Below the pieces are notes generated by a model. It had not been told where the DNA came from. It searched no databases and saw only the letters and a list, made by a program, of their open reading frames with translations. Shown here piece after piece: positions 1 through 25,182 of a stretch of DNA of 64,000 bases. The stretch's first letter is position 1; every line of letters begins with the position of its first letter. The position numbers and the translations under genes are program-made. The stretch is from Gonapodya prolifera JEL478 (Eukaryota; Monoblepharomycota; Monoblepharidomycetes; Monoblepharidales; Gonapodyaceae): positions 189,012 to 253,011 of the forward strand of contig KQ965733.1 in assembly GCA_001574975.1 (NCBI GenBank). Reading direction: 5' to 3'.

Positions 1-3000
1 ACGATTCCGTGCGTCAGTCAGAGGCTTCACGACATCGTGGCAATAAGTGAAGAGGAAGACTCTTACGTCGTGCTCGTGAGTGTCTCGGTCGTGACACTGC
101 GTGCGTTGCCACAGGTGTTGCAAAAAAATCGAAACCAGGCGCACGTGAGAAAACAAGTGTCACAAAAACGGGCGTTGGGTCGTCATACCTGGTCGTTGAA
201 GACGTCTCTGACGTTGTAGCGGTGGTCGTAGGTGTCTCTGATGTTGTCGCAGTGGTCTGTGTGAAAGAAATCATTGAGGATTTGAAACTGGGCGGCAGGC
301 GACAACGGCATCACCACAAATCATACTTACAGTTGTTGTGACAGCGAGCCTTCTTTCCACAATGTACCCTTCTACCAAAAGTTCGCTTCCAGGTTGAGGG
401 TCGCACGCAAGGTCGTTCAGACTGCCGTCGTTATTGTACCTTCAAGAAATCGTTCACTTGTTATCCCAAGAAGCCTGGCAAACGTGGAGCTCCAAACGGT
501 CCGAAAGGAAACTCACATGATGACACACTGCTCCACTCCATTGACGTTGTTGGGCTCGTTCGGAGTGAAGACAACCGCCGCATACGTGCTGTTCCAAACA
601 ACCTCACTGACGGCATAGCTTGCGGAAGAGAAGAATGATCGATCTCCCTAATGGTACCACAGGTGTTATTTTGGACGGTCAAAATTTCTCTCTCTGGAAA
701 CGTGCTGAACTAGCAAGAAACCCACACTTTGCCCGACGCTGTCAATGCCAACCCAGGAACTGCCCAACAAAAGCAGAGGCTTGAAATAAATTCACTGACG
801 CACGGATGGTCTACTCACATAATGCTCATGTCTGAGATGACGCTAAACACAGCCGCTTGGTCGGCAGGGGACTGTATTCTGACGAGTTCCGCCTTGGAGT
901 TTTGGTATAAAAATTGAAATGAATACCAGCACAAGTAATGCCAAGCAAGCGACTGGCAGCAAACCTGATATATCAACGCCGCATTTGCAACCGCCTCAAA
1001 CCAATTGAGAGTCGCTGGTGCTCGCACAAATCTCACAGCTCTGCCGTTGACGATTGTGAAACCATTTGTAGCAGCATCGGAGGGAGTACTTTTGCAATAA
1101 AATGGGTTGGTAGGTCAGTTAAAGACTAATGACTTTGAGCCCAAGCGCATAATACTGCATACATGTATTCAGCAGGAGGGACGATCCCAATTTGGGAGCC
1201 TCCGGTTTCTGCAAGTGTGGCCGTGCATATGCTTCCGTTGGTTGAAACTGTGCCGCCACGCGCAAGGCACCACGCTGAAGTCACACCACCACTAACTGTT
1301 GCGGTGGTAGGGGTCGCAGATGTGGTGGTGTAAGTGGTGCTTTTACTTCAAGATCCATTGGTGAGGGGGAAAGACGCAAGCAGGCGCCCAAACATCCAAT
1401 CAGCTCTTTCTTCTTTACTCCTTGGAAAAACGCGAGAGCTCCCACCTGGTCGTCGACGATGTCAGTGTCTGGGTTTCCGTGGTGGTTTCTGTGGAAGTTT
1501 GAGTCTCGGTGGACGTTGGTGTCTCGGTGACACTGCGTGCAACGCCAAAAGTGTTGCAAGAGATCGAAACCAGGTGCATGTGTGAACACAAGTGCCACAA
1601 AAATGGCCGCTAGGTCACCATACCTGGTCGTTGAAGACGTCTGCGTCATCGTGGTCTCGCTACGGGGTATGTCAACACATGCAAACGGCAGGCCATGAGA
1701 GATTTCGCGTGAGTCAGTCAGGGACCTCACGACATCAAACTCGCGTGGCAACAAGCGGAGAGTAAGATTCTTACGTTGTGCTCGCGGATGTCTCGGTCGT
1801 GACACTGCGTGCGTTGCCACAAGCGTCGCAAAGGTAATCGGAACACCGAAAATTGTAAGGCGCGGATTAAAGAGTTGAGTGACAGTAAGAAAACATATGC
1901 GAGAGAAAGGGGGGCCGTTAAGTCCGTACCCGGTCGTTGAACTTCTCTGCGTCGTCTCGGTCGTTGCGGTCGCTCTGTACCCATTGACGTCATGTGATAG
2001 AATTCGCGCAAAGTTTGGTCAGTCCCAGTCTTGCACGCACGTCACACTCCCCCAGTCACCACCACGCTCTAAAATTATCTCACGTCGTGGTGGTGGATGT
2101 CCACGTCGTCGTGGTTGTCTCCGGGGGAGGAGGAGGAGCGAGCCGCCGCTCGGCAAAATAGGCTGTCCCGTAGCCTTGAAACGTTAAGACGTCAATATCA
2201 GTGCAGGCGTAGTCGTTCAGATCGCCGGCGGGGTACCTGGATGCGGAAGGAAAAGGTCACGCCAGCGGCCGGCAGGGAGGAGGTACGTTGTGGGTAGAGA
2301 GAAAGTGAAGAACAATGGACACGACTGGAGCGCGTTTTTCCGGGTAGGATCACTCGCCTCCGGCGGACGCCTCGGTGAGTACTTCCCACTTAGGCCTCTT
2401 AGGCCTCGACTGCCCCCCGCCCCCCTCCTCTCTCCTCCCAGCGCCCACATTAAAAAAAAAAGAAAAGACGTACAATTGGAGACATTGCTCATCACCCCCC
2501 GAGTTGCTTGGTTCCCCGACGTCGAAAGACAGGTCTTGGGTATTGACGGACACGGTGGCGGCGTAGCTTGCCGAAAGGTAGTAAGGCTGGTTTCCCTGGA
2601 AGTGGAGGTGCGTGATTGTAATGAGTGCGAGGGGCCGTGGGTGGGTGAGAACACGCAAAGGCAAACAAGCGAACTGACTGGCTGTCCGACGCTATCTAAC
2701 CCGATCCAAGCGACGCTATAAAGAAACGTGTATGGGAGAAGGAGAACAAGAAAAGAAAGCTTTGGAACATGATGATGGATGTGGGAATCGAAATACGGCA
2801 GCCGGCATTCTCGCAGGTGTTTTTGGACTGCACGCGACCGTAACAACGGGAATGTAAAAATGATTTGAAACGCACTTGTCCGATTGGATAAAGGTCGGCT
2901 GCTCAGAGGCTGACTTGATTCCAAGGAGCTCGGCCTGGGAGGGAGGGAAGGAGGGAGGAAGAAGGGAAAGGGGGAAGTGGGGTTCAGTGGTTCTTTATTC

Positions 3001-3497
3001 AGGTAGAAGAGTGCAGAGTGAAAAGTGCAGCTTGATAGGGGACACAGACCTGGTGGTTCACAGACGCGTCGGCGACGGCTTGGAGCCATGTCATGTTGGG
3101 TGCGAGGAAGAGTTTGTACGCTCGGTTGTTGGGGGCGTCAATCGTCCAGCCGTTCGCAGTGGCGTCGGCGGTGGTTCTATAGAGGAGGAGTGTGTGAGTG
3201 TGTGTGAGTGTGTGTGAGCGTGAGGCACTTTTGTGGGCGTTACATTAGGTGACCGGGTGGCACAACGGCAACCTGAGAGCTGCCAGTTTTTGGAAAAGTA
3301 ATCGTGCACAGCGGAGAGTTGCCCGCCGAAAGCGATCCCCCGCGAGCAGTGCACCATGATGCGGTGACTCCGCCGTTTAGGAGTGCTCCAAGAGAAGGAG
3401 ACGGAGTGGAGGCTAGGATCGCGAGAAGCAGCAGCGATGGGGAGACCAGCAAGGACGAGAGGGAGGATGAGAGGGATCGGAGGGAGAGCGAGGGCAT
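1..3497 (-). CDS. Secreted protein with two C-type lectin domains and a Thr-rich stalk (3' end outside window)
   Basis: I assembled 18 exons by GT-AG borders and phase: 3244-3497, 3050-3176, 2876-2934, 2679-2715, 2474-2595, 2084-2236, 1930-1974, 1775-1804, 1624-1659, 1446-1532, 1163-1345, 965-1088, 819-892, 726-759, 517-647, 331-439, 189-256 and 67-96. The first exon starts with ATG at 3497 and encodes a Ser/Leu-rich signal peptide. Two homologous modules follow, each spread over six matching exons with the same intron phases: domain 1 at 2084-3420 and domain 2 at 331-1310. C-type lectin landmarks are WIGLDSVG / WVGIDSVG, the EPS or EPN sugar-binding motif followed by EQC, and an LND motif in place of WND before the next Cys. 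Between and after the domains lies a Thr/Ser/Glu stalk coded by tiny exons. The family predicts Ca2+-dependent carbohydrate binding outside the cell. The stop codon lies beyond base 1. Confidence 0.85.
67..256 (-). repeat. Duplicated stalk exon-intron unit, copy 3
   Basis: Exon 189-256, a 92-nt intron (97-188) and exon 67-96 match the units at 1446-1974 in both exon and intron sequence. The intron after exon 67-96 also resembles the one after exon 1775-1804, so the copied block was probably larger and continues past the left edge. Confidence 0.8.
1446..1974 (-). repeat. Duplicated stalk exon-intron units, copies 1 and 2
   Basis: Two consecutive units, exon 1930-1974 plus intron plus exon 1775-1804, and exon 1624-1659 plus intron plus exon 1446-1532, share the same design. 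The first exon ends near TCAACGACC at a phase-2 donor. A similar intron then ends in a CACGCAG acceptor, and the next exon opens with TGTCAC. Similarity extends through the introns, so whole exon-intron blocks were copied. A third copy lies at 67-256. Confidence 0.8.
2345..2412 (-). repeat. Dispersed GC-rich hairpin repeat, copy A (in lectin intron)
   Basis: Read on the minus strand this stretch carries GAGGCCTAAG, an ACCGAGG block and CCGCCGGAGGCGAGTGATC. The same blocks occur at 32155-32280 and 44996-45366. It lies wholly inside an intron of the lectin gene. Confidence 0.65.
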
Positions 3498-4061: not shown

Positions 4062-5015
4062 TCAATCACCCACCTGAACACCACGCAGCCTGTGTGTTCT
4101 GCACATGTCGCGTCGCCACCCAAACAACCGCACTATACGGGCCACCTTAAACACACTCCCGCCACGCGCATTCGCATCCGCACCACGATCCAACCATAAA
4201 GTCACCGCACCGGCCTTCCCACTCTCCGCGGCCGCAATGAGCGCCGCGTCGTCACCTTGGCGAATGTCCACCAGCAGTCCGGGCAGTCAACTTGTGTACA
4301 TGCACGAGGCCGTCCAGCACGTTGACGCGGTCCTGGAAGGAAGTGATGGGCAGCAGGCGCCGCGCGGCGAGCTGGGCTGTGCCTGGGGTGCCGAACCCGA
4401 GAAGTACGCTCGCGAGTGGGGCAGTGAGGCCCTCACGCAGCACGGCGGTCCAGAATGCGTTCGTGGTGATCATGCCGACGTCTTTCGCGAGGATAGAGCA
4501 GGATCAATTTGACAGCCCCCATGTGCCCGACGCGTACGGCGGTGTGGAGGAGGGACGTGGGGTCGATCCGGATCGTGCTCGAGGGGTGCAGGTCCCGGAG
4601 GACGCCCATATTGGACCGCGACGGCGGCGCCGTGATCAAGCAGAATCCAGACTGAGTCGGCGTGGCTCTCTGTGCAGGCAGTGCTGAGAGCGGCACACAG
4701 CGCGTCCGTGGTGAAGGCAGCGAGACCCAGGTCGGCGTTGGGGTAGCGGTCGAGCAGGGCTCGCCGAGGGTCCACGCAGGTTCGTTCTGCTACGAGAATG
4801 AGGAGGTCACGGTCGACGTGTTTGGGCGAGGCCGACGCAATGGGCAAGGGTGTCTGGATCATCCCGACGGGACAGTGCTGGACTGCCATGCGCAGGACAA
4901 GGAGTACACCGCCTCCACCTCCGCTTTGGGCTTCAGTTTCGGCTTCGGCTTCGGGTCTCGCAACCAAGTTGGACGGCGCAAGCAGTATTTCGACGCGGGA
5001 CGTTTCTCCCTCCAT
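4062..5015 (-). pseudogene. Ankyrin-repeat protein relic with frame breaks
   Basis: Minus-strand translation shows ankyrin-like helices in successive but different frames. About 4620-4690 contains SVWILLDHGA, about 4520-4570 contains LLHTAVRVGHMGAVKLILL, about 4330-4480 contains NAFWTAVLREG, and 4180-4275 contains DDAALIAAAESGKAGAV followed by LDRGADANA. Passing from one to the next needs a one-base shift near 4620, 4500 and 4290. I could not place introns of normal size there. Neighbouring genes of greater length read cleanly, so decay is more likely than poor sequence. The 5' end, possibly up to about 5300, is unclear. A small unconventional gene structure cannot be excluded. Confidence 0.5.
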
Positions 5016-23672: not shown

Positions 23673-25182
23673 ATGAGACTTCTTGCATTCCTGGCTGCCG
23701 CGGGCGCCGTGCTATCGACCGTTAATGGACAGACAATCGCAGATCTCATCAAGGCGAATCCCAACATGGTGAGCGTCGTTGGTCTCATGTTCCCTCAACG
23801 TCGGTTGACCATTCGTTTTCGCAGACCGAAATAGCAAAGGTACGTCTGCAGAGAACGGAACTGCAAGAATCGGATGGTTGAGAGATCGAAACACTTCTCG
23901 TACCAGCTCATTCCCGCCAACCCGGCATGGAGCCAACCTGGCCCGAACAAGACATTGTTTGCGCCTACCGATGCAGCTGTGAGGGCGGCCTACCCCGGCG
24001 GCATCGCTACCGCTCCTGCCCCCCAGGTGAGCTAGGAGACCGTTGGTTATGGTTTACGTTTGGCGGAAGTCTCACAGCCGATTTCAGGGTTTCTTGTTCC
24101 TTGCCAACCAGCTCATCAACCCAACAACCTACAAACGATACGACGTCGTCTCTGACACTGCAGGAACCATCTCCGCCGTTTACGACAACTACCAAGAGCC
24201 TCCTGCCGTTGAGGTGCATCTGCGCACTGGAACCAACGAGGCCATCGGCCGAGCAGGCGACGTTACCTCGAACGCAGGAGGCGTACTTGTTGGTCTCGAC
24301 GGTATTCTCAACCCCAACCTGTCGCCGGTTGCCACTGCCAACACCACAACACAAACTACGATTTCTTTGTGGGCGATGACGGTGCAGCAAGCTGGAATCG
24401 CAACTTACGTCAACTCCCTGAAAGAGAGCACATTGTGAGTGATTCGAATGATTCAAATGTACTTGAATATTGCATTTTATAATTTATCGTGCCTTCAGCT
24501 ACGTTCCTACCAACGCAGCCATCACGGAAGTTGCATCCACCCTCGCGACACTCTCACAAAACCAGATTGCAGCCATTCTTTTGTACCACATCATTCCTCA
24601 GCGTGTGAACTCTGTCGACCTCCCGTCAGACAACAATGTCACGACGGTGCTTGGTGCTCCGTACTCCATTAGGCTGCGATATGGTGGAGAGGGCACCAGC
24701 ACCATTAATGACGCTACACTTGGAATCCCTGGCGATATTGAAACAACCGGAGGACCAATTCAAATCATCAACAAGGTTTGTATTGTGATCACATCAAGGT
24801 TCCCAATCGAGCGTGACAAAACATTTTGCATCACTCAGGTTCTTCTCCCGAACGGTGGCGTTCCTCCTACCGCCATTCAACTTCCCGCCGGTGTTTTTGC
24901 AGCTGCGTCCACCACCGCCGCCGCGTCGTCCAGGTTTGTCATTCAGAGAATTGTGGTTCTTCTAGGAGGATTATTGCTAACGTCTATTCTTGCTTCGTCC
25001 GAATCAGTGCTACCTCGGCGGCGTCTCGTACCGCTGCCGCGACCACTGGCGCTGCTTCTGCAACAACCGCCTCGGCAGCTTCTTCCACGTCGCCTGCCGC
25101 AGCGAAACCAGGTGCTGCCAGCCGCGTGATCGCTGGCTCGTCGCTGTTGGGTCTAATCGCAGCTGCCGCACTGGCACTGTGA
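23673..25182 (+). CDS. Fasciclin (FAS1) domain GPI-anchored surface protein
   Basis: Seven exons (23673-23768, 23825-23839, 23907-24026, 24088-24434, 24499-24775, 24839-24933, 25008-25182) encode about 374 residues. An N-terminal signal peptide (MRLLAFLAAAGAVLS) is followed by one or two FAS1 domains with NKTLFAPTDAAV and an LLYHIIPQRV box. An Ala/Ser/Thr-rich linker and a C-terminal hydrophobic tail (SSLLGLIAAAALAL) fit a GPI anchor signal. FAS1 proteins act in cell-surface adhesion. The second exon is only 15 nt (TEIAK), with clear GT and AG on both sides. Confidence 0.88.

Follow-up and report, generated by a model that had tools for sequence, protein, structure and literature searches.

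Fungi are usually regarded as what animal C-type lectins recognise, and not as owners of such proteins. The C-type lectin-like domain (CTLD) has WIGL as its core motif and canonically contains an inner disulfide between C2 and C3 and an outer disulfide between C1 and C4, which connects helix 1 to the last strand and is kept in animal C-type lectins. CTLDs that bind sugar in a calcium-dependent manner carry an EPN or QPD tripeptide, a Glu and an Asn-Asp pair as ligands, at positions known from animal lectins, and in those lectins the tripeptide sets the sugar class, EPN being of the mannose type and QPD of the galactose type. Among fungi, the anaerobic gut fungi are, like Gonapodya, early zoosporic lineages. 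A survey of 101 eukaryotes, including 49 fungi, performed in 2010 reported in its text no fungal Lectin-C (PF00059) proteins (PMC2939053). C-type lectins were later named, in 2021, in the gut fungi Neocallimastix californiae and Piromyces finnis (PMC8106346). In the same year, a fungal lectin survey predicted 63 lectin classes; its main text has the term 'C-type' once, in a reference, and its figures and supplements could list C-type lectins (PMC8227253). A study of gene transfer in early fungi counts 26 genes acquired by G. prolifera and, for Neocallimastigomycota, 7 lectins among the genes that were moved in (PMC11291939). Going by the naming in gut fungi, CTLDs were not wholly unknown in fungi before; a preliminary description of the present locus was fair in calling them rare, whereas 'unheard of' would have been too strong. 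The one article found to pair 'C-type lectin' with 'Gonapodya' contains the former term only in its reference list, and none of the literature matches listed, which come mostly from outside subscription journals, describes a CTLD family in this genus.

The gene analysed here lies on the minus strand of a 64,000-nucleotide stretch of the G. prolifera JEL478 genome (the window), whose position 1 falls inside the gene. G. prolifera is placed by the NCBI taxonomy in Monoblepharomycota, chytridiomyceta. A gene model was made by hand, splicing by eye at GT/AG sites after the window had been joined to the 9.9 kb that precede its start (L001). The model comprises 27 exons and 26 introns, all 26 of the GT...AG type, and reads as a single open frame of 993 residues from an ATG at 3497 to a stop codon that ends 1895 bases beyond window position 1, so that the gene extends about 1.9 kb past the window start. 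An upstream exon is possible because the chosen ATG is immediately preceded by CAG. In order, the protein consists of a leader, CTLD1, a first stalk, CTLD2, a second stalk, a hydrophobic helix and a Gly/Ala tail. Eighteen of the 27 exons lie wholly inside window positions 1-3497; the other nine lie beyond the window start (L001 9875 to 8017, or -37 to -1895 relative to the window) and encode what is left of stalk 2 together with the transmembrane helix and the Gly/Ala tail. The features within the window, all taken from the splice model and, for the fifth exon of each CTLD, also from the module table discussed below, are as follows.

3244..3497, minus strand: exon 1, with the start codon, a signal-peptide-like leader and the N-terminal Cys-pair subdomain of CTLD1
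3050..3176, minus strand: CTLD1 exon 2, entered in phase 2 and left in phase 0
2876..2934, minus strand: CTLD1 exon 3 (AELL...), left in phase 2
2679..2715, minus strand: CTLD1 exon 4, WIGLD motif, left in phase 0
2474..2595, minus strand: CTLD1 exon 5 (EPS...EQC), left in phase 2
2084..2236, minus strand: CTLD1 exon 6 (LND..C, AERR), in which the Thr-rich stalk 1 begins
1446..1974, minus strand: stalk 1, made of four Thr-rich exons, each symmetric (phase 2-2), and their intervening introns
1974-1930, 1804-1775, 1659-1624 and 1532-1446, minus strand: the four stalk 1 exons
1163..1339, minus strand: CTLD2 exon 1, with the end of stalk 1 and the Cys-pair subdomain, left in phase 2
965..1088, minus strand: CTLD2 exon 2, left in phase 0
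819..892, minus strand: CTLD2 exon 3, left in phase 2
726..759, minus strand: CTLD2 exon 4, WVGID motif, left in phase 0
517..647, minus strand: CTLD2 exon 5 (EPNN...EQC), left in phase 2
331..439, minus strand: CTLD2 exon 6 (LND..C, VERR), in which stalk 2 begins
1..256, minus strand: first two exons of stalk 2 (256-189 and 96-67)

As judged from its sequence, the predicted two-CTLD gene is confirmed as real, its model being one open frame. No deposited model of the gene came up in searches of protein databases that together spanned lengths from about 110 to 1738 residues, and it seems to be unannotated. The first of these searches scored only the 7989 candidates that shared most words with the query, a list probably filled by words from the Thr-rich stalks, and among them the sole significant match was M427DRAFT_64858, another protein of G. 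prolifera JEL478.

The identity of the two domains was established by profile comparison. CTLD1 (residues 41-233) and CTLD2 (residues 333-529) scored 26.6 bits (E 1.1e-5) and 28.1 bits (E 3.6e-6) against Pfam Lectin_C (PF00059), both above the family cut-off of 22.6 bits. They are 45% identical to each other and each is interrupted by five introns, in phases 2,0,2,0,2. Because the exons had been picked by eye, a control HMM was built with no input other than three modules taken from Gonapodya proteins in the database; its E values were 3e-51 for CTLD2 and 2e-41 for CTLD1, the best among 2000 shuffles reaching 0.011, and an HMM of seven modules gave 8e-57 and 2e-42, against 0.64 for the best shuffle. 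An unspliced six-frame search with M427DRAFT_64858 alone also recovered four exons of the window gene. The Lectin_C search of the unspliced genome yielded 0 matches, which is no sign of absence because the exons are short and 14 control genomes yielded 0 as well. When a profile of nine Gonapodya modules was compared with solved structures, 91 distinct PDB chain sequences were matched at E <= 0.01, the best 60 of which we take, by name, to be CTLD-containing proteins without exception. The top two rows owe their scores to the sum of numerous weak repeats; among matches over a single stretch, CD23 and mosGCTL-1 were best (1.5e-9 each). With CTLD2 alone, langerin came first (E 3e-4). AlphaFold2, applied to M427DRAFT_64858 with HDU93_009170 of Gonapodya sp. 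JEL0774 as the sole other row, gave a mean pLDDT of 28, too low to count for or against the fold, and the assignment of the CTLD fold to the window domains rests on sequence alone.

These results bear out most of what the preliminary description had read from the letters. The HMM check that it asked for recovered both C-type lectin domains; its 18 exons equal the number found wholly within positions 1-3497; the spans that it gave for the domains correspond to CTLD1 exons 2-6 (3176-2084) and CTLD2 exons 1-6 (1339-331); and the parallel six-exon layout with shared phases, the signal-peptide-like leader, the Thr-rich stalk, which is accompanied by a second one, and the fungal nature of the organism, a member of a zoosporic group, were all recognised correctly.

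The window gene is a member of a family. Six-frame searches of the genome located the module at C3 (the window gene), C166, C102, C6 and C5, counts that are lower bounds, so that at least four loci exist besides the window gene. M427DRAFT_64858 is encoded at C166, with exact exon matches, and the window protein is 55% identical to it over 37% of the query. Like the window gene, it contains the module twice, with Thr-rich linkers and the same intron phases in CTLD1. Unlike it, M427DRAFT_64858 ends in a cellulose-binding domain (CBM_1, E 7.8e-12), shows no second strongly hydrophobic stretch past the leader (best hydropathy 1.14 versus 2.22 in the window gene) and has a stretch that resembles leucine-rich repeats (LRR) by eye and has no Pfam match. 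The deposited model lacks the inner exons of the second CTLD, which can be seen in the copy at C102. C166 and C102 share 779/816 bases (95%) in their first six exons and 360/387 (93%) in the five intervening introns; by sequence, these two CTLD-CBM1 genes represent either recent paralogues or a pair of haplotypes. Their CTLD1 gives a dN/dS of 0.31, with 12 changes of each class, synonymous and nonsynonymous; the value comes from few changes and applies to these two close paralogues, not to the window gene. The CTLD at C5 (L035 ~4118-4549; G000:C5:909117-909548) has no introns and shows EPNN and ND motifs; its N-terminal part is read in different frames, and it is perhaps a processed, decayed copy. 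The gene observed at C6 (L036; G000:C6:264000-273000) combines PAN-like stretches with two CTLD modules, one of them with EPNN..EGEDC, which we take to be a close likeness to animal lectins.

In the sister species Gonapodya sp. JEL0774, HDU93_009170 contains three modules, the third incomplete in the deposit. It shares the module and the Thr-rich linkers with the window gene, and differs from it in having PAN-like stretches (under the Pfam cut-off), QPD in both complete modules where CTLD2 of the window gene has EPN, and a deposited model with no leader-like start. Its first module as deposited includes some 27 residues, two of them cysteines, that resemble an unspliced intron. Lectin_C recognises the second module at C102 above the cut-off (26.9) and the second at C6 under it (13.2); it gave no match at E <= 1 in HDU93_009170 and none in M427DRAFT_64858, C5 or the first C6 module as entered, the C6 rows and C5 being incomplete. 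The family therefore stands at the edge of the Pfam model, which missed the relatives M427DRAFT_64858 and HDU93_009170. Since C102, C166 and C6 also hold two modules each, the CTLD pair is probably, on sequence comparison, older than the individual family genes. The parallel exon layout from which a whole-domain duplication inside the gene had been proposed earlier is confirmed, but the CTLD pair is shared with these other loci.

Nine modules were aligned and tabulated, leaving outside the table the first module at C102, the second at C166 and the incomplete third module of HDU93_009170. The core Trp of the WIGL-type motif, WIGLD in CTLD1 and WVGID in CTLD2, is present in all seven tabulated modules that were entered with the relevant exon (the entries of both C6 modules lack this exon). 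All nine tabulated modules keep the calcium-site Glu and Asn-Asp, and the tripeptide is EPN in six, EPS in one (CTLD1 of the window gene) and QPD in two (both complete JEL0774 modules). Outside the table, the first C102 module has EPN and Asn-Asp; the second C166 module has EPN, yet Asn-Glu replaces Asn-Asp, which brings Asn-Asp to 10 of the 11 modules with a readable site. CTLD2 thus has the full set of calcium ligands (EPN, E, ND), whereas the EPS of CTLD1 departs from a strict EPN/QPD tripeptide. Four cysteines are likewise kept in all nine modules, including both of the inner disulfide (C2-C3); neither position of the outer disulfide (C1-C4) has Cys in any of the nine. C5 has a fifth cysteine at a different place, and the first module of HDU93_009170 as deposited has two extra ones in a stretch excluded from the table. 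Compared with animal C-type lectins (langerin, CD23, selectins, mannose-binding protein), the Gonapodya modules display the same WIG, EPN, E.C and ND..C motifs, and solved animal lectin chains match their profile; they differ in lacking the outer disulfide and in the presence of an N-terminal subdomain of about 45 residues with its own Cys pair. The Lectin_C model does not demand the outer disulfide, so the window domains are still members, and its absence marks them as non-canonical ones.

Beyond the CTLDs, the protein has a hydrophobic leader (residues 13-31; hydropathy 1.92), two stalks of 99 residues (53% Thr) and 262 residues (40% Thr), a single strong hydrophobic stretch at residues 799-817 (helix region from 792; best hydropathy 2.22) and a C-terminal tail of 175 residues (29% Gly, 26% Ala) in which a Pfam search found no domain. 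All eight cysteines of the protein lie in the CTLD modules, four in each. Symmetric exons, with phase 2 at both ends, account for 11 of the 14 that encode the stalks and the membrane helix. Some stalk exons are repeated together with their introns, in changed order, at 85-87% identity (window 36-124 with 1744-1832 and 123-207 with 1558-1642). Judging by these repeats and the symmetric exons, duplication of exons inside the gene seems to have lengthened the stalk recently, the CTLDs being apparently older.

The neighbouring open frames encode a SURP/PRP21 splicing factor, an EF-G-like GTPase and Rpb2. Contamination by animal DNA was rejected: the gene lies on a 1.04 Mb contig among ordinary genes and has paralogues on four other contigs. 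Pieces of a Glycosyl hydrolase family 16 domain were observed in a neighbouring gene (L001 4353-5211, plus strand), one passing the Pfam cut-off and the other falling just short of it, and an open frame with a Fasciclin domain, possibly a second adhesion protein, lies 21 kb away (window 24467-25126, plus strand). Protein-database searches, whose reach depended on shared exact words and protein length, found no relatives outside Gonapodya. A search with the family alignment found none among 5191 candidates at E <= 0.1, under a length rule that dropped even M427DRAFT_64858 and HDU93_009170, and is weak evidence against relatives elsewhere. Scans with two short peptide patterns, which could reveal close relatives only, hit bacterial and archaeal genomes 49 times and viral contigs 48 times, in no case at a relative.

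The product is probably a type I membrane adhesin with two CTLDs on stalks, of which CTLD2 would bind sugar with calcium. From predicted gene structure, homology, motif retention and family context we infer its surface location, calcium dependence, sugar class and adhesive role. The signal peptide would direct the protein to the cell surface, the Thr-rich stalks, probably O-glycosylated, would hold the CTLDs outward, and the single transmembrane helix would act as an anchor with the Gly/Ala-rich tail inside. Mannose- or glucose-type sugars are the most likely ligands of CTLD2; CTLD1, with its EPS, may bind more weakly, recognise another sugar or have a structural role. Adhesion is made more plausible by the transmembrane helix and by the paralogue ending in a cellulose-binding domain, and the likely job would be the attachment of zoospores or the thallus to plant debris or microbial surfaces. 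The preliminary description had spoken of host or substrate; since Gonapodya lives on plant matter, 'substrate' fits better. G. prolifera has been reported to be able to grow on pectin (PMC4494064).

The rival that survives best, though unlikely, takes the CTLDs as a fold without sugar binding that serves protein-protein contact or structure on a stalk protein spanning the wall. Many animal CTLDs bind no sugar, CTLD1 carries EPS, and the Thr stalks and Gly/Ala tail could suit a wall protein, but the retention of E, N and D in 9/9 modules while EPN/EPS and QPD alternate is hard to explain without selection by a ligand. A surface receptor that senses the glycans of microbes or prey, by pattern recognition, would agree with the predicted type I topology and cytoplasmic tail, and CTLDs are common receptor heads in animals; it is considerably less probable, as the Gly- and Ala-rich tail has no recognisable domain and a paralogue devoid of the helix and ending in a cellulose-binding domain suits attachment over signalling. 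A decaying gene or an artefact of hand splicing is scarcely credible: splicing was by eye, no deposited model of the gene was returned and the C5 copy is intronless and frame-broken, but the 27 exons form a single frame with GT/AG introns, an HMM from deposited proteins matches both CTLDs, and their intron phases equal those of an independently annotated paralogue.

The adhesin reading can be extended to the family, in which the module appears joined to other parts, such as the cellulose-binding domain of M427DRAFT_64858 and the PAN-like stretches in Gonapodya sp. JEL0774. The CBM_1 paralogue suggests that the family may be linked to plant material, and QPD in the sister species suggests a possibly re-tuned specificity. 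Tentatively, and at slightly less than even chances, this would be a lectin family evolved in Gonapodya that lost the outer disulfide, gained the Cys-pair subdomain, alternates between EPN and QPD and uses varied anchors (membrane helix, cellulose-binding domain, PAN-like stretches) for different surfaces. Retained calcium sites together with mannose- and galactose-type tripeptides in a family of fungal proteins would mean that this recognition fold is used, and perhaps re-tuned, beyond animals. The finding bears on whether animals and fungi both inherited the CTLD from their common ancestor or one lineage passed it to the other, and provides candidates for how zoosporic fungi may attach to plant matter.
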